This document shows, one piece after another, positions 21,788 through 29,045 of a stretch of 64,000 bases of DNA. This DNA comes from Candidatus Poribacteria bacterium (lineage in GTDB: Bacteria; Poribacteria; WGA-4E; WGA-3G), in NCBI GenBank assembly GCA_022827625.1, contig JAJEIE010000027.1, positions 486,827 to 550,826 on the forward strand, read 5' to 3'. The notes beneath the pieces were generated by a model. It had not been told where the DNA came from. It made no database searches and saw only the letters and a list, made by a program, of their open reading frames with translations. How positions within the stretch are numbered: the first letter of the stretch is position 1; each line of letters starts with the position of its first letter. The translations under genes were made by a program, and so were the position numbers.

Positions 21788-22543
21788 ATGAAGAACTGTC
21801 TTGTCTACCATGCGCAGCTGTTCAATAATCTATTTCGGTTAACCGCTGTTGTAGTCTTAATTTGTATGTTATCTCTTGTTAGTTTCTCGACTGCCTTCGC
21901 TGATGCGCATGAAGCTGGAGGTGAAACAGCAGAAGAAAAACCGATGGAAGAAAAACCAAAAATTACAGGATGGTTCCAAATTGATGTTGATAGTTTGGGC
22001 ACCTATTTCCTGGTTGGTGCGAGCCATCCGCTCAGTGGTGGTCTTTCGTTTGATTCTAATATCTATGTTAATGATCATTTGGGCGAGTTTGATATGGGGG
22101 TTACATTCCCTGTTATCGCGAATGACAGCATGGCACTCCTGCTAACACCGATGCTCGGCGTTGGGTTCAATTATACCAGTCCGGACGGGCCCTATGCCTT
22201 ATACCCACAAATCTTTGCTATCCTGCCCGCCGGTAAAATCTTCGGTTTCCATTGGACAATCAGTACAATTTCTTCCATATTTGATGACCAAAGCCTAAAT
22301 GAGCTCTACAATCGTACGTATTTCACCTATGCTCTTAATGACATCGTTGCTGTTGGTCCGCAGTTTGAATCCGTGCTTGGGCTTGGTGATGGTGGTGGAT
22401 TGTGGGCTTTAAATTTCGGTGGACGTATAAATATCGGTTATGGTGAGAACAACACGCTTGGCATATACGTTGGGTATGAAACGAAAAAGGACGAGGGTCA
22501 AACCGGACTTACCGGTAGAATGAATTTTACGCGTAGATGGTAG
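21788..22543 (+). CDS. Exported DUF6733-like outer-membrane-type protein, paralogue 1
   Basis: The 251-residue protein has a long N-terminal signal (LTAVVVLICMLSLVSFSTAFA), then DAHEAGGETAEE and a domain of amphipathic strands: GWFQIDVDSLGTYFLVGASH, a FNYTSPDGPYALYPQIFAIL segment, and GYGENNTLGIYVGYET, ending GRMNFTRRW with an aromatic last residue. It closely parallels the protein at 25041-25757. This matches my memory of the DUF6733 family, probably a small beta-barrel or beta-sandwich in the envelope. The function is unknown; ammonium transporter genes lie downstream of the second paralogue. Confidence 0.65.
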   Translation: MKNCLVYHAQLFNNLFRLTAVVVLICMLSLVSFSTAFADAHEAGGETAEEKPMEEKPKITGWFQIDVDSLGTYFLVGASHPLSGGLSFDSNIYVNDHLGEFDMGVTFPVIANDSMALLLTPMLGVGFNYTSPDGPYALYPQIFAILPAGKIFGFHWTISTISSIFDDQSLNELYNRTYFTYALNDIVAVGPQFESVLGLGDGGGLWALNFGGRINIGYGENNTLGIYVGYETKKDEGQTGLTGRMNFTRRW

Positions 22544-22652: not shown

Positions 22653-22800
22653 ACTCGTATGTCGTACTATTGGAGATAACCATGCCAGAATTACCTTCAC
22701 CACGAACCGTGTGGTACTCACGAAGCAACTCGGCGTGATAATAAGACCGTGCCGCGCGATTTTAAAGCCGTCAGGTTGTAGGCGAATGGGAGGAAAAGCA

Positions 22801-23190
22801 ATGAACAATGATACGATAACAACTAAAGAGATGTTTGAGTTACTGCGTTCTGATATACAAAATCAATCTTCAGAACTCAAGGGACAGATCACTGAACTTA
22901 AGGCAGAGATCTCCGATGTCCGATCTGATATGAAAAACCAATCTTCGGAACTTAAGGCAGAGATCTCCGATGTCCGTTCGGAACTCAAGGCGGAGATATC
23001 TGATGTCCGTTCCGAGATCTCCGGTGTCCGATCTGATATTCAATCTTTAGAGGATCGACTTCGGAACGTTGAAACCGCTGTAGCGGGGACGACAGCCGTT
23101 GCGACGTACAAGAAAACATTGATTGACTGGTTATTTCGGATTGCAGCCGCAGTCGGTGTCGGCGGGGCGATCAAGGCGTTTTTGTCTTGA
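22801..23190 (+). CDS. Coiled-coil protein with a C-terminal membrane segment
   Basis: The 129-residue protein is mostly a coiled coil made of near-identical units (SSELKAEISDVRSDM, SELKAEISDVRSE, EISGVRSDI), repeated also in the DNA. After SLEDRLRNVETAVAGT comes a final hydrophobic stretch (LIDWLFRIAAAVGVGGAIKA). ATG 22801 has GGGAGG seven bases upstream; an earlier in-frame start at 22711 is unlikely. Its shape resembles small bacterial tail-anchored coiled-coil proteins of the DUF1640 kind, whose role is unclear. The tandem units mean copy number could vary between strains. Confidence 0.65.
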   Translation: MNNDTITTKEMFELLRSDIQNQSSELKGQITELKAEISDVRSDMKNQSSELKAEISDVRSELKAEISDVRSEISGVRSDIQSLEDRLRNVETAVAGTTAVATYKKTLIDWLFRIAAAVGVGGAIKAFLS

Positions 23191-23240: not shown

Positions 23241-24650
23241 CTATTCCAACAAGTAAATATAAATCGTTCTGTCTTTCGCTCGTGAGAAAGCAGGAAATGT
23301 TTCTACAAGATGCCCGCGTTCACGAATCCAATCGCGAACTGCCACATCCGCATCAAAGACGTTAAAACTCGCCACATCCACGACAAACCACAATCGCCTT
23401 CTTCCAGAAGATTTCCACTCTCTCTCAAATTCTTCCTCGTCGTCCAGCAACCCACCGATGTAGACGGAGGTTAGTTCTGGAAGATAATACCGACCCATCT
23501 CAGGTTCCGAAAGTACTACGCTATCGGTGGATCTCTTCTCAGCTTGAATCGCTTCAAACGCCTCTCGCCATCTTGGTCGCCCACCGTTTTCAATCTGAAA
23601 GTAAAGGTAGGTCTGCGACAGTAGCGTCACCACCAGAACACACGGCATAAACATCCCCAATATTTTTCTACTTGATTGTGATTCTACCGCCTCCCAAACC
23701 CTTTCGCACGCAACACCAGCGAGAATAAAATAGGCAGGAATCGTCCAGAATAAGTAATAACCAGCGACGTTTTGAAACTGCGATGCTACGAGGAAGAGTA
23801 CCATCGGTACACCCGCATAACAGAGTAAAAACTGGACAGACCTTTTGCGTCCGGTCGTAACGAAGCCGAAAAAGGCAGTAACGGCTATCGGCACACTCAC
23901 CCCGTGGATGAGTGTTAGCACAATGTAAATCGGACTCCGCTGCCACTCGTTGTGTCCCCAACCAGAAAAGAGATACCCCCGCACCTGTGGAAGTAGCAGT
24001 GCTAACACCGGCATCGCGAACGGGAAAAAGAAAATAAGCAGATTTAGCCATCGTTTCCTGCTACGTTTTTCTAATAGACAGATCAGCGCATAAATCGCTA
24101 ATGCTGGCACAATCACGACAGAAAGGGTGTGCGAGAGAATGAGGCAGAGACAAGAAACGAGTGCGCCTATTGTCAAAAGTGTCGAATCGTGTTCCAGAGA
24201 CAGATAGAAGGACCACGCTGTCAGAACCGCAAAGAGCAGCGTAAAAACGGGATAGCGGGCGTTCTGTGTCCAAAACAGATGCCAACTTGAACACGCCACA
24301 AATGCGCTACCAAGAAGCCCAATCCGCCAATTGAAGAGCGTGCGTCCTAACCCAAAAACCGCAGGAATTGCGGCAATCCCAATGATACACGGAATGAGGC
24401 GGCTCCCCCATTCACTATCACTGGCAAGCGCGATCGATAATTTGACTGCAAGATACGGAATAGGATTCGGAATGCCTTGCCAACTTCTGAGTGAGAGGTT
24501 CTGTGCATCTCTAACAGTAAAGACCTCGTCGATCCAAAAACTCCACTCGCCCAAATCCCAGAAGCGGAGGAGTGTCCCGAACATCACAACGCTGCTCAAA
24601 AGCAGAATATGCTTTTTTTTTGGGCAATCTTTTGTTGAAAATTTCAGCAT
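23241..24650 (-). CDS. Membrane glycosyltransferase of the GT39/PMT (ArnT-like) type
   Basis: The 469-residue protein has about ten hydrophobic segments. The first extracytoplasmic loop carries the acidic motif FWIDEVFTVRDA typical of GT-C enzymes that use polyprenyl-phosphate sugars, and WHLFWTQNARYPVFTLLF follows. The last 110 residues form a soluble domain. It should move a sugar to an acceptor on the outer face of the inner membrane; donor and acceptor are unknown. The start codon is directly preceded, on its strand, by the heptamer repeat (AACTGTAAAAAAA then ATG) with no ribosome binding site. Confidence 0.75.
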   Translation of the reverse strand: MLKFSTKDCPKKKHILLLSSVVMFGTLLRFWDLGEWSFWIDEVFTVRDAQNLSLRSWQGIPNPIPYLAVKLSIALASDSEWGSRLIPCIIGIAAIPAVFGLGRTLFNWRIGLLGSAFVACSSWHLFWTQNARYPVFTLLFAVLTAWSFYLSLEHDSTLLTIGALVSCLCLILSHTLSVVIVPALAIYALICLLEKRSRKRWLNLLIFFFPFAMPVLALLLPQVRGYLFSGWGHNEWQRSPIYIVLTLIHGVSVPIAVTAFFGFVTTGRKRSVQFLLCYAGVPMVLFLVASQFQNVAGYYLFWTIPAYFILAGVACERVWEAVESQSSRKILGMFMPCVLVVTLLSQTYLYFQIENGGRPRWREAFEAIQAEKRSTDSVVLSEPEMGRYYLPELTSVYIGGLLDDEEEFEREWKSSGRRRLWFVVDVASFNVFDADVAVRDWIRERGHLVETFPAFSRAKDRTIYIYLLE

Positions 24651-24659
24651 TTTTTTTAC

Positions 24660-24783
24660 AGTTATCAGTTATCAGTTATCAGTTGTCGGTAACAGGTTTC
24701 CTTTAGTGATAGCCACAAACTCGGTAACTCCCACGGGTTCCTACTGATAATCAACAACCGACAGTCAATAAACCGATAACTGA
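24660..24783. repeat. Heptamer-type intergenic inverted repeat, copy B
   Basis: Three tandem units of TTATCAG at 24662-24682 lead to TTGTCGGTAAC, and the far end has CAACCGACAGTC and CCGATAACTGA. It abuts the start of the glycosyltransferase gene. The rest of the 390-base gap to 25040 contains only the sigma-54-type site listed separately; I see no gene there. Confidence 0.75.
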
Positions 24784-24831
24784 AAATGGCTTCGGCTTTC
24801 GGAGCGAACGCCCTGACTGCCGATAGCCAAT

Positions 24832-24847
24832 TGGCACGCGTTTTGCT
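24832..24847 (+). promoter_or_regulatory. Sigma-54 (RpoN) type promoter
   Basis: TGGCAC (24832-24837), five bases, then TTGCT (24843-24847), in the context TTGGCACGCGTTTTGCTT. This matches the sigma-54 -24/-12 consensus TGGCACG-N4-TTGCW at every position with correct spacing. It reads toward the DUF6733-like gene at 25041 and the ammonium transporters, which fits nitrogen control. The predicted start is near 24858. No NtrC-type enhancer site could be found with confidence. Confidence 0.6.
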
Positions 24848-25040
24848 TTAAGCGACAATAGGTGCGCAAGATGTGCTGGTGAAAGCCTGTTATTTGCAGG
24901 CGAGTATATCACGAATTGATGTTGAAGTCAAGAGACTCCGTTCTCTATAAAACCCAAATTGGCACTATAGCACCGTGATTGTCGGTTAGTTAAATCTACA
25001 CAACACCCATGCACGCTTTAATGTGCACAAGGAGATTTTA

Positions 25041-25757
25041 ATGAAAACGCATACATTTTGGTTCGTTCAGTTGTTAGCAGTCGTCTGTATTTTCGCCGTC
25101 GGTAGTATCCCTATGGCCTATGCAGACGCACATGAAGCCGGTGAAGAGATGGCAGAAGAAGAAGCATCAAGTGCTTCCGGTTGGTTCCGTACGGACACGG
25201 ATAGTTTAGGCACACAGATCTGGGTTGGTGCAAGCCATTCCCCAAGTTTCCTCGGCGGTCTCTCATTAGATACCGATATTTACGTCGTGGGAACGTTCGG
25301 TGAGTTGGATGTCGGACTCGGTATTCCGGTCGTCGATAGCGACTCATTGTCTCTCAGTTTCCTTCCCATGGTAGGTATCGGGTTTGATTACGCCGCACCG
25401 AACGGTCCATCTTCCTTAATTGCCCCGCAGCTATTTACCTATCTCACTGCCGGATCTATCTATTTTGAGTCGTGGATACAAGGATTTTTCAACTCGCCTT
25501 TTGATTACGGTGATGATTCTATCTACACCCGGAACTTTTTGCTTCTGTCGCTCAACGATACACTCTCTGTTGGTCCACAGGTAGAAGTAACGCTTGATTT
25601 GACCAACGGGGGACTCGGTGGCCTCGCCCCCGGCCTCCGCGCGAATGTCGGCTATGGTGAAAATAACACGCTCGGAGTCTTCGTCGGATTTGAAACCCAA
25701 AAAGAGGACGAGGATACAGGAATTACCGGCAGAATGACATTCGTTCGCACATGGTAA
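25041..25757 (+). CDS. Exported DUF6733-like outer-membrane-type protein, paralogue 2
   Basis: The 238-residue protein has a signal peptide (FVQLLAVVCIFAVGSIPMAYA), an acidic linker (DAHEAGEEMAEEEA) and a strand-rich domain: GWFRTDTDSLGTQIWVGASH, GIGFDYAAPNGPSSLIAPQL, FLLLSLNDTLSVGPQVEVTL and GYGENNTLGVFVGFETQ, ending TFVRTW. It aligns along its whole length with the protein at 21788. AAGGAG lies eight bases before ATG 25041. A sigma-54-type site lies 195 bases upstream and an Amt transporter gene 124 bases downstream, so it is likely nitrogen-regulated; its role is unknown. Confidence 0.68.
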   Translation: MKTHTFWFVQLLAVVCIFAVGSIPMAYADAHEAGEEMAEEEASSASGWFRTDTDSLGTQIWVGASHSPSFLGGLSLDTDIYVVGTFGELDVGLGIPVVDSDSLSLSFLPMVGIGFDYAAPNGPSSLIAPQLFTYLTAGSIYFESWIQGFFNSPFDYGDDSIYTRNFLLLSLNDTLSVGPQVEVTLDLTNGGLGGLAPGLRANVGYGENNTLGVFVGFETQKEDEDTGITGRMTFVRTW

Positions 25758-25765
25758 AGACGCGG

Positions 25766-25855
25766 ACTATCAGTTGTTAGTTATCGGTGATTGGTAATGA
25801 GAGGCGTGTGATGAATTAACCCTTCTTCACTGATTGCTGACAACTGATAACTGAC
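25766..25855. repeat. Heptamer-type intergenic inverted repeat, copy C
   Basis: It opens CTATCAGTTGTTAGTTATCG and closes CTGACAACTGATAACTGA, with a non-palindromic middle. It lies between the second DUF6733-like gene and amt and stops about 15 bases before the AAGGAGATAT ribosome binding site. Confidence 0.7.
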
Positions 25856-25881
25856 TGCTGTTCTACAAGGAGATATTTCAA

Positions 25882-27225
25882 ATGAAGAAAAAGGTGATCA
25901 TATTAGTTTTTGCTCTTACGTGCGTATTGAGTCTAAACGTTTTCGCCTTAAATGGATCGGTCGAGGGTGAAAAGGTTTCTGACGCAAAATATATGGCTGA
26001 CACGTTGTGGGTGCTTGTCGCTGCATTTCTCGTTTTCTTTATGCAGGCAGGATTCGCTATGGTGGAATCTGGATTCACACGCGCCAAGAACGCTGTCAAC
26101 ATTCTCATGAAGAACCTGATGGACTTTTCGATGGGTTCGATCGCATATTGGGCGATCGGTTTTGCCATCATGTTTGGTGCCGGTAATGCATTCATGGGAA
26201 CAAGTGGATGGTTCGTTCCAGCTGAGTCTAATGCGTTTGGCTCATTAGAATGGAGTTCTGTGCCGACGCACGCCGCATGGCTCTTCCAGCTTGTGTTCGC
26301 TGCTACTGCCGCAACTATCGTTTCCGGTGCAATGGCAGAACGCACACAGTTCAAGAGTTATCTCATTTACAGCGTCTTCATCACGGGTGTTATCTATCCG
26401 ATTGTTGGACACTGGATTTGGGGTGGCGGTTGGTTATCAAATTTCGGTGTGGGTATGTCAGATTTTGCAGGTTCGACGGTCGTCCATTCGACCGGTGGGT
26501 GGCTGGCGTTGACAGGCGCTATCGTCTTAGGTCCCCGTGCTGGTAAATACGACAGTGAAGGCAACCCGAGGCCTATTGCTGGACACAACCTTCCGCTCGC
26601 TGCCCTGGGTGTCTTTATCTTGTGGCTCGGTTGGTTCGGGTTTAATCCGGGTAGTCAGATGGGTGCTGATGCAGCAGATATTTCCAGTATTGCCGTAACC
26701 ACGAACCTCGCAGCAGCAGCAGGTGCTATTACCGCTATGATTACAGCTTGGATATTCCTCGGTAAACCCGATGCCGGTATGTCGCTCAACGGCGCACTCG
26801 CTGGCTTAGTCGCGATTACCGCAGGTTGTGCCTCTGTGAGTCCGGTCTCCGCCGCGATTATCGGTGGGCTCGGTGGTATTGTTGTTGTTCTGAGTGTCTT
26901 GTTCTTTGAACGGTTGCGTATTGACGATCCCGTCGGTGCCATCTCTGTTCACGGAACCTGCGGTGCGTTAGGCACAATTCTGCTTGGATTTTTTGATAAA
27001 GAAAGTGGACTTTTCTTCGGGGGCGGTGCTGGACTCCTCTGGACACAGATCGTCGGTGTTGTCGCCGTTTTCGTATGGTGTCTCGTTACAGGCTTTATTC
27101 TCTTTTACGGTATTAAAGCCGTTACGGGGTTACGCGTCAGTGAAGATGAAGAAATGGCAGGACTTGACTACGAAGAACATGGTGCAAGTGCCTATCCAGA
27201 CTTCAACGTCTCTTCAATACGTTAA
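25882..27225 (+). CDS. amt: Ammonium transporter (Amt), copy 1
   Basis: The 447-residue protein has a cleavable-looking N-terminal segment and 11 membrane spans. Family motifs include GFAMVESGFTRAKNAVNILM and the two pore histidines in FAGSTVVHSTGGW and AISVHGTCGALGT. Amt proteins carry ammonium across the inner membrane. The cytoplasmic tail begins GLRVSEDEEMAGLD, the conserved segment that GlnK-type PII proteins regulate, but no glnK gene is adjacent. AAGGAGATAT precedes the ATG. It lies downstream of a sigma-54-type promoter and a DUF6733-like gene. Confidence 0.95.
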   Translation: MKKKVIILVFALTCVLSLNVFALNGSVEGEKVSDAKYMADTLWVLVAAFLVFFMQAGFAMVESGFTRAKNAVNILMKNLMDFSMGSIAYWAIGFAIMFGAGNAFMGTSGWFVPAESNAFGSLEWSSVPTHAAWLFQLVFAATAATIVSGAMAERTQFKSYLIYSVFITGVIYPIVGHWIWGGGWLSNFGVGMSDFAGSTVVHSTGGWLALTGAIVLGPRAGKYDSEGNPRPIAGHNLPLAALGVFILWLGWFGFNPGSQMGADAADISSIAVTTNLAAAAGAITAMITAWIFLGKPDAGMSLNGALAGLVAITAGCASVSPVSAAIIGGLGGIVVVLSVLFFERLRIDDPVGAISVHGTCGALGTILLGFFDKESGLFFGGGAGLLWTQIVGVVAVFVWCLVTGFILFYGIKAVTGLRVSEDEEMAGLDYEEHGASAYPDFNVSSIR

Positions 27226-27263
27226 AAGTATTTTTCTGAGAGCCTTTTGGTTATAAAACGAAT

Positions 27264-27333
27264 AGGGACCGCCCACACGAAGTTTCGCTTATATTCTGAG
27301 TTTGCTTCACACTTTGTGGGCGTTTCCCTTTTT
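27264..27333 (+). terminator. Probable intrinsic terminator after amt copy 1
   Basis: CGCCCACA (27270-27277) pairs with TGTGGGCG (27315-27322), with flanking AGGGA/TCCCT also able to pair, followed by a T-rich run. The loop is long (about 37 bases), which lowers confidence. Confidence 0.4.
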
Positions 27334-27680
27334 GCTGTTGTATTTGATTGCCTTTTTCTCTCGGTTATAGACTATAGTTCACTGGTTGTTCCAATAGGAA
27401 CGGATGCTACCTTCACAGGGTCGAAACGCTGGTGGAACGCAATACACTTGAAATTATTACTTGATACCTTCGCTGTATTCTGGTAAAATGGCACATTAAT
27501 GCCTTTTATCGTAAAAATTGGGACATATAACTTCTGGTTTACAACCCACTTTTCTGCTGGATGTGGTTTCGGACTTCGCCAGCGAAAGTGTGCTTTAACT
27601 GAATGGTAGACAAAGCAGTCTGCTTTTACAGAAACAACAGAACAAGCACTATGTGTTTGTGAATATTATGGAGGATCCAG
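27334..27680. other. Intergenic region between the two Amt genes
   Basis: Apart from the GGAGG ribosome binding site of the second transporter at 27670, I see no gene or clear promoter here. A near-miss to a sigma-54 site (TGGCACATTAATGCC, near 27489) has spacing one base too short. Confidence 0.4.
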
Positions 27681-29045
27681 ATGCGACAACGCTGTGCATC
27701 AACGTCTACGAAAAAACGATCTGGTTATACGCGTATTGGGACGCTAATTGTTATTCTATTGATTTGTGGTGTGCCGGGCGTGGCGATGGCACAAGAGGCT
27801 TCACTGGATTCAGGCGACACCGCTTGGATGCTTACCTCAACGGCTCTCGTCCTGTTTATGACTATTCCCGGACTCGCTCTCTTCTATGGCGGTCTCGTAC
27901 GCGTCCAAAATGTGCTCTCTGTCCTTATGCAGTGTTTTGCATTGACAGGGTTGATTACGATTATATGGGTTATCTGTGGTTATAGCCTTGCCTTTAACAC
28001 CGATGGTATGGAGGCAGGAAAAATCACGCTCGCTTCTTTTGTTGGCGGGCTTGGGACTATGTTCCTGCGAGGCATCGGTGTAGATACGCTCTCTGGGACT
28101 ATCCCTGAAACTGTTTTTATCACCTTCCAGCTCACCTTCGCGATTATCACGCCTGCGCTGATTGCTGGGGCGTTTGCTGAGCGGATGAAATTCTCGGCGA
28201 TGCTCATCTTCTCTATACTCTGGTCGATAATCGTGTACGCCCCGCTCTGCCACATGGCATGGTCTGGCGACGGATCGCTGTTTGGTGATATAATTGGTGC
28301 ACTCGACTTCGCGGGTGGCACTGTGGTGCATATTAACGCCGGAATCGCAGCCCTCATCGCTGCAATCTTAGTCGGAAAACGTCTCGGTTACCAAACAACG
28401 GCGATGCCACCGCATAGTTTGACGCTGACTGTCGTCGGGGCATCTATGCTTTGGGTCGGATGGTTCGGCTTCAATGCCGGTAGTGCTGTTGCTGCTGATG
28501 GTGCCGCTGGTATGGCGATGCTCGTTACCCAGATTTCAACCGCAACAGCCGCTGTTGCGTGGATGTTCGTTGAATGGGCGAAACACGGCAAACCGAGTGC
28601 CTTGGGTATTGTAACAGGTGCTGTTGCTGGCTTGGTTGCTATTACCCCAGCTTCTGGTTCCGTTGGACCTATCGGTGCCCTCGTTATCGGCATCGTCTCA
28701 GGGGTCGTCTGTTTCTGGGGTGCTACGAGCTTAAAATCGCAACTCGGCTATGATGACTCCTTAGACGCATTCGGTGTTCACGGTATCGGCGGGATTGTCG
28801 GTGCCTTATTGACAGGCGTTTTTGCCGCTGAAGGTTTAGGGGGTGTTGGGCTGGATAAAAGTATAGGGATGCAAGTTTGGGCGCAGTTCCTTAGTATTGT
28901 CGTCACTCTGATTTGGAGTGGCGTGCTTTCGTTTATTATCCTCAAAATCGTTGATGCCACAGTCGGCTTACGCGTTGAAGAGGATGAGGAACGCATGGGA
29001 CTCGACCTCTCCCAACACAACGAACGTGGATACAACCTCTCATAA
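27681..29045 (+). CDS. amt: Ammonium transporter (Amt), copy 2
   Basis: The 454-residue protein has a signal-like N-terminus (ending GVAMAQEASLDSGDTAW) and AmtB-type spans: TIPGLALFYGGLVRVQNVLS, then the pore histidines in FAGGTVVHINAGIAALI and FGVHGIGGIVGALLTG, and the C-terminal GLRVEEDEERMGLDL. It is closer to the AmtB subtype than copy 1, so the pair is not a recent duplication. GGAGG lies six bases before the ATG. A strong terminator follows. No PII gene is adjacent. Confidence 0.95.
   Translation: MRQRCASTSTKKRSGYTRIGTLIVILLICGVPGVAMAQEASLDSGDTAWMLTSTALVLFMTIPGLALFYGGLVRVQNVLSVLMQCFALTGLITIIWVICGYSLAFNTDGMEAGKITLASFVGGLGTMFLRGIGVDTLSGTIPETVFITFQLTFAIITPALIAGAFAERMKFSAMLIFSILWSIIVYAPLCHMAWSGDGSLFGDIIGALDFAGGTVVHINAGIAALIAAILVGKRLGYQTTAMPPHSLTLTVVGASMLWVGWFGFNAGSAVAADGAAGMAMLVTQISTATAAVAWMFVEWAKHGKPSALGIVTGAVAGLVAITPASGSVGPIGALVIGIVSGVVCFWGATSLKSQLGYDDSLDAFGVHGIGGIVGALLTGVFAAEGLGGVGLDKSIGMQVWAQFLSIVVTLIWSGVLSFIILKIVDATVGLRVEEDEERMGLDLSQHNERGYNLS

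Follow-up and report, generated by a model that had tools for sequence, protein, structure and literature searches.

In proteobacteria, the sigma-54 promoters of the nitrogen (Ntr) regulon include those of glnA and glnK-amtB, and sigma-54 activators usually bind 80-200 bp upstream of the promoter that they serve. Divergent arrangements that overlap are called excludons. We know of no cultured member of the Poribacteria. Passages of published work describe these bacteria as abundant sponge symbionts (PMC3909097), state the release of ammonium by one sponge (PMC6081418) and list PII among the genes transcribed in Poribacteria, together with those of two glutamine synthases and of two ammonium permeases (PMC5087111). 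In other such passages, amtB, glnK and glnA carry negative values in an NtrBC table (PMC7214821), long antisense leaders are mentioned for Listeria (PMC4591121), and the Kuenenia porin-domain gene KSMBR1_3177 is up in ammonium limitation, its authors proposing ammonium influx (PMC7438415). No paper combining Poribacteria with sigma54 was found in the literature searched, and Poribacteria together with rpoN or sigma-54 returned only a paper on a Janthinobacterium strain, to judge by its title.

Here, we analyzed a window of 64,000 nucleotides (the whole stretch of DNA under study) from Candidatus Poribacteria, in which a sigma-54 motif precedes a gene, called A below, and two ammonium transporter genes (Table 1). 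We consider it likely that this motif acts as a -24/-12 promoter for two genes transcribed as one unit, the predicted barrel gene A and amt1, and that it is served by an NtrC-type activator responding most likely to low nitrogen or ammonium.

Table 1. Features of the locus, in window coordinates.
Feature	Position	Strand	Basis
Paralog B of gene A	21788..22543	+	B orthologs lack the sigma-54 site (negative control)
Divergent glycosyltransferase-like gene (PMT_2)	23241..24650	-	family match
Repeat-filled, non-conserved stretch from divergent gene to sigma-54 site	24651..24831		comparison of relatives
Sigma-54 promoter, -24 (TGGCACG) and -12 (TTGCT)	24832..24847	+	motif match, conserved in 30/30 and 48/48
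Predicted leader of the A-amt1 messenger	24858..25040	+	start placed 12 nt past the C of the -12 element
Facing sigma-70-like promoter, TTGACT-N17-TATACT, TG before -10, toward divergent gene	24903..24931	-	pattern, 48 leaders
Small hairpin, then ribosome-binding site AGGAG	25010..25034	+	5-pair hairpin, paired changes
Gene A, predicted 12-strand outer-membrane beta-barrel, 238 aa	25041..25757	+	structure prediction and structural matches
amt1, ammonium transporter	25882..27225	+	family matches
Hairpin with T-run 3' of amt1, probable terminator	27259..27334	+	folding
amt2 sigma-70-like promoter, TTGATA-N17-TAAAAT, outside the sigma-54 unit	27461..27489	+	pattern, amt1-amt2 gaps
amt2, ammonium transporter, probably a separate unit	27681..29045	+	family matches, own promoter

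The motif scan of the window found TGGCACGCGTTTTGCT at 24832-24847 on the + strand with zero mismatches, and this TGGCACG-CGTT-TTGCT sequence is the only zero-mismatch sigma-54 match that the window holds. It carries the GG and GC elements of TGGCAC-N5-TTGCW, at the exact spacing that the original prediction had stated. The gap to the gene, given there as 195 bases, measures 193 between the last base of the site and the ATG of A at 25041. By itself the motif is weak evidence, because about one simulated window in 20 gives a perfect match (9 of 200 first-order Markov windows, mean 0.045). At the scale of genomes, its use is clear and goes beyond chance: the own genome holds 16 matches to the motif and 3 to the motif read backwards; over 36 same-genus genomes the corresponding numbers are 926 and 89, the motif exceeding its control in all 36.

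A match to gene A is present in each of these 36 genomes, with loci given for 30, and a zero-mismatch site precedes A in every one of the 30 loci fetched. A set of 74 loci came from named records (Candidatus Poribacteria, with single records of Myxococcales and Deltaproteobacteria) and comprise 48 with A orthologs and 26 with paralog B or other homologs. The site was found, at no more than one mismatch, in all 48 of the former (46 perfect, and two, L184 and L186, with one mismatch, both reading TGGCAT) and in 1 of the 26 paralogous or other homologous loci; since the named-record loci overlap the same-genus genomes, 30/30 and 48/48 are not independent. The 48 upstream regions (33,406 bases) contain 51 forward sites, no reversed ones and no antisense ones. 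These orthologs take in a more distant group in which A is about 65-75% identical, and protein A of the window is 97% identical to its counterparts in L153 and L154, which points to Poribacteria as the host of the window too. In 11 regions of other families no sigma-54 site was found at the A homolog, most of these genes being nearer to paralog B. Furthermore, the site has been retained although the DNA adjoining it upstream was swapped for other repeats, and although the length of the leader varies among relatives. The sigma-54 motif originally noticed at this position is thus confirmed, being conserved in every A ortholog examined; it is almost certainly a working promoter, and the observation is much stronger than the earlier reading of one sequence could know. 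At one locus (L178), two identical perfect sites stand 24 bp apart upstream of A.

The own genome encodes RpoN (E 2.2e-58, with the RpoN box ARRTIQKYRD), on which the original prediction depended, as well as nine strong AAA+ sigma-54 activators, each at E < 1e-64. The sequence evidence argues strongly that A-amt1 depends on sigma-54. A sigma-54 activator, L023 (G000:C21:87471-87971), combines an N-terminal Rieske [2Fe-2S] domain with GAF, PAS, AAA+ and Fis-type HTH domains and is possibly redox-sensing.

How far does the unit extend? The order divergent glycosyltransferase, site, A, amt1, amt2 is found in all 20 of the 36 genomes that were read further out. We compared the amt1-amt2 gap in the own genome and in 16 of these 20 loci (n=17). 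The hairpin after amt1 (-30 kcal/mol, z -4.55, followed by a T-run) folds in 17 of 17, with paired changes in its stem, and a sigma-70-like promoter of the form TTGATN-N17-TA[A/G]AAT precedes amt2 in 14, the gaps without it being those of L092, L108 and L110. Because amt1 is followed by a conserved hairpin and T-run, and amt2 has a sigma-70-like promoter of its own, the sigma-54 unit probably comprises A and amt1; the promoter, first assigned to the ammonium-transport region at large, would serve A and amt1 and probably not amt2. A sigma-54 site for amt2 was considered as well, the half-match TGGCACATTAATGCC near 27489, and rejected: it is wrongly spaced, and amt2 has the sigma-70-like promoter instead.

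The partner of A is not always amt1, as the gene directly behind A is amt2-like in seven named loci (L166, L167, L177, L178, L191, L194 and L196), which suggests that amt1 was lost or that another transporter took its place downstream of the sigma-54 promoter. In L206 and L217, a Poribacteria and a Myxococcales record, an A-like gene adjoins amt in reversed order, a hint of an older partnership between A and Amt.

Gene A had been labeled DUF6733-like. This label is unsupported, since A matches no Pfam model (no family up to E = 10); it likewise found no match in NCBIfam, nor among PDB sequences up to E 10. AlphaFold2, run with 42 sequences, gave a model (pLDDT 85) of 12 strands following a signal-peptide-like helix, whose closest structures are porins of the 12-strand type: VhGalP (Z 17.8), KdgM (17.1-17.2) and NanC (16.2), at 8-9% identity. 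From this model, the product of A is most likely an outer-membrane barrel, through which ammonium may pass.

A deeply conserved sigma-54 promoter stands before A and amt1, so that ammonium uptake probably needs an activator of its own to be turned on. In the sequence of events that we propose, sigma-54 RNA polymerase would sit at the site as a closed complex and would start near 24858 only once triggered by an ATP-driven, NtrC-type activator. The resulting messenger would have a leader of about 180 nt and would probably end at the hairpin after amt1. The activator would most likely answer low nitrogen or ammonium, and the cell would thereby supplement the separately expressed amt2 with another ammonium channel and with a pore in the outer membrane.

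In this proposal sigma-54 dependence is strong, and the nitrogen signal is plausible or at most likely. It is favored by the target genes themselves and by the published transcription of nitrogen genes in Poribacteria mentioned above. The same motif had been expected before glnA, and indeed all 30 glnA loci have a sigma-54 site there, which for the most part reads TGGCATAAATTTTGCT; nearly all show TGGCAT, and the site of the own genome has one mismatch. A single P-II gene was found, and it stands behind glnA and not with amt. As for the ntrC gene that was also anticipated, no activator of the genome attains the NCBIfam NtrC cut-off (TIGR01818; best 479.5 and 478.4 bits against 558.6), and in a scan of the 3 kinases beside activators, the one next to the best NtrC candidate scored 127.7 bits against the NR(II) cut-off of 240. 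About 70 bp upstream of the glnA site, a conserved palindrome like CTCGTGATTTTACACGAG was seen at L062-L091 and is a candidate activator site; in 28 of 30 loci the match that scores best falls between -69 and -72. This one candidate palindrome is absent from the A regions, with a mean best score of 3.7 against 30.2 at glnA, a value flattered by the choice of the consensus by eye from the glnA regions, and 1.0 for shuffles. A classical NtrC site at the A promoter, looked for in the form of this palindrome, was thus rejected. Control common to A and glnA is unproven, since no conserved activator site was seen in the 144-262 bp upstream of the A promoter and the glnA palindrome is lacking there. 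The nitrogen-dependent expression first proposed therefore holds in its sigma-54 part, with site, RpoN and activators all in place, but is unproven in its nitrogen part, given the many non-nitrogen targets, no NtrC equivalog and the missing palindrome.

These targets can be described further. Our reading of the loci places 10 of the 16 perfect sites of the own genome before a correctly oriented gene and 5 within longer ORFs, 1 having no visible target; groES, Hsp20 and envelope genes are among the targets. Perfect sites of this genome (L010, L015, L016) precede groES-groEL-like ORFs, and two, 64 bp apart, an Hsp20-like gene. Control of GroES by sigma-54 has been reported elsewhere, in a passage of PMC12316311. 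Sites of the genus also precede TonB-like, surface and ECF-sigma-like genes. In one genome (G028, 44 sites), a downstream ORF was found at 25 of the 30 loci examined, few of them nitrogen-like. Read by sequence, sites of this genome (L133, L137, L144, L128) stand before ECF-sigma-like ORFs and one activator-like ORF.

The strongest competing explanation accepts the sigma-54 promoter as real, with an activator that would sense envelope or other stress, the barrel being the main product and amt1 following along. The genus-level sites before groES, Hsp20, TonB-like, surface and ECF-sigma-like genes would fit it, as would a published account in which sigma-54 controls the exterior of the bacterial cell (in part of PMC3162934), and neither an activator site common to glnA nor an NtrC equivalog was found. 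However, the A-amt order is fixed in 20 of 20 genomes, glnA-PII has a sigma-54 site too, and the sister paralog B, which has no amt, has no site. We regard a stress signal as rather unlikely and retain low nitrogen or ammonium as the preferred signal.

The region upstream of the site offers little that is shared. In 21 sequences the gap between site and divergent gene measures 144-262 bp and is not conserved, its fillers differing and many containing inverted GATAACT-type repeats; no conserved block was found in it by eye, and an activator site may instead lie in the leader or at a distance. Conservation begins again at the sigma-54 promoter and runs into the leader. In the window, repeats of the GATAACT type fill 24651-24831 and 25760-25860, and the versions in relatives differ and stop right at the promoter.

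The leader ends in an AGGAG ribosome-binding site (25030-25034), and its covariation is confined to the 5-pair hairpin at this site (27 of 30 leaders aligned, leaving aside L046, L048 and L055, which carry long insertions). The possibility that the leader is a structured RNA or a riboswitch was considered and set aside, Rfam giving only a chance match at the amt1 hairpin and the consensus fold being weak. GTGC/GCAC repeats of the A leader were also tried as an activator site and rejected, since their polarity is opposite to that of the NtrC site and since the window itself does not preserve the inverted-repeat arrangement. No sigma-70 promoter on the + strand of the leader is conserved, and a + strand sigma-70 start inside it is possible.

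On the opposite strand, the leader contains a strong facing sigma-70-like promoter, written TTGACT-N17-TATACT or TATAGT among relatives. Its strict pattern occurs in 43 of the 48 leaders and the relaxed one in all 48. In the two controls, the + strand and the reversed string, the strict pattern gave 0 and 0 and the relaxed pattern 1 and 1. Its position and orientation suggest that it probably serves the divergent glycosyltransferase gene, by way of a predicted leader of about 250 nt that would cross the sigma-54 promoter. The two predicted starts are about 40 bp apart in the window, and 27-103 bp separate the sigma-54 site from the -10 element in the 48 relatives. An ORF at 22711-23190 gave sub-threshold coiled-coil matches only. 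As the promoters face each other, interference is predicted: transcription from either would run through its counterpart, and the firing of one would silence the other. We tentatively suggest that the locus could be a conserved two-way switch, in which a sigma-54 promoter for pore and ammonium channel and a sigma-70-like promoter for the glycosyltransferase silence one another; as conserved sites are lacking upstream, the activator may exert its effect from within the transcribed leader.

The facing promoter, conserved in 48 of 48, is also what gives some weight to a second alternative, that the sigma-54 site acts mainly as a roadblock or as part of a facing pair regulating the glycosyltransferase gene, A-amt1 being transcribed mostly by sigma-70 from the leader. 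Inactive sigma-54 binding has indeed been reported in E. coli, in a passage of PMC4591121. Nevertheless, the leader has no conserved + strand sigma-70 promoter to play this part, and the -12 element, the orientation and the position before the ribosome-binding site suit a true promoter of A, which makes this alternative improbable. A chance match without function, suggested by the perfect match in about one simulated window in 20, is refuted by the depth of conservation: the site is present in all 48 orthologs and in just 1 of the 26 other homologs, and 51 forward sites compare with none in either control.

In conclusion, our preferred reading of a sigma-54 promoter for A and amt1 provides a concrete, conserved control point for ammonium uptake by a symbiont, puts forward an outer-membrane barrel as a component of the uptake route and, with the facing sigma-70-like promoter, provides a case in which interference with a sigma-54 promoter can be tested. 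A sigma-54 promoter before ammonium uptake is familiar; new are its host group, its pairing with a barrel gene and the promoter that faces it. As in the proteobacterial Ntr regulon, a -24/-12 site precedes an ammonium transporter gene, RpoN and activators of the NtrC type are encoded, and glnA has a site too. Here, however, an outer-membrane barrel gene takes the place of glnK, P-II is found with glnA, no conserved upstream activator site is seen, a conserved sigma-70-like promoter faces the site, and the NtrC identity is not reached. The barrel itself shares the fold of the 12-strand porins of the KdgM/NanC type (4fqe, 2wjr, 8xua; Z 16.2-17.8 over 161-177 residues), but with only 8-9% identity and no sequence family match. 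Its proposed role resembles that of Kuenenia KSMBR1_3177, an outer-membrane porin suggested to ease ammonium influx, although the latter has a different porin domain (BBP2) and the passage describing it links it neither to sigma-54 nor to an amt operon. Finally, as in excludon-like divergent transcription, the leaders of two divergent genes would overlap head to head, whereas here one of the two promoters is of the sigma-54 class and activator-dependent, and interference is a prediction.
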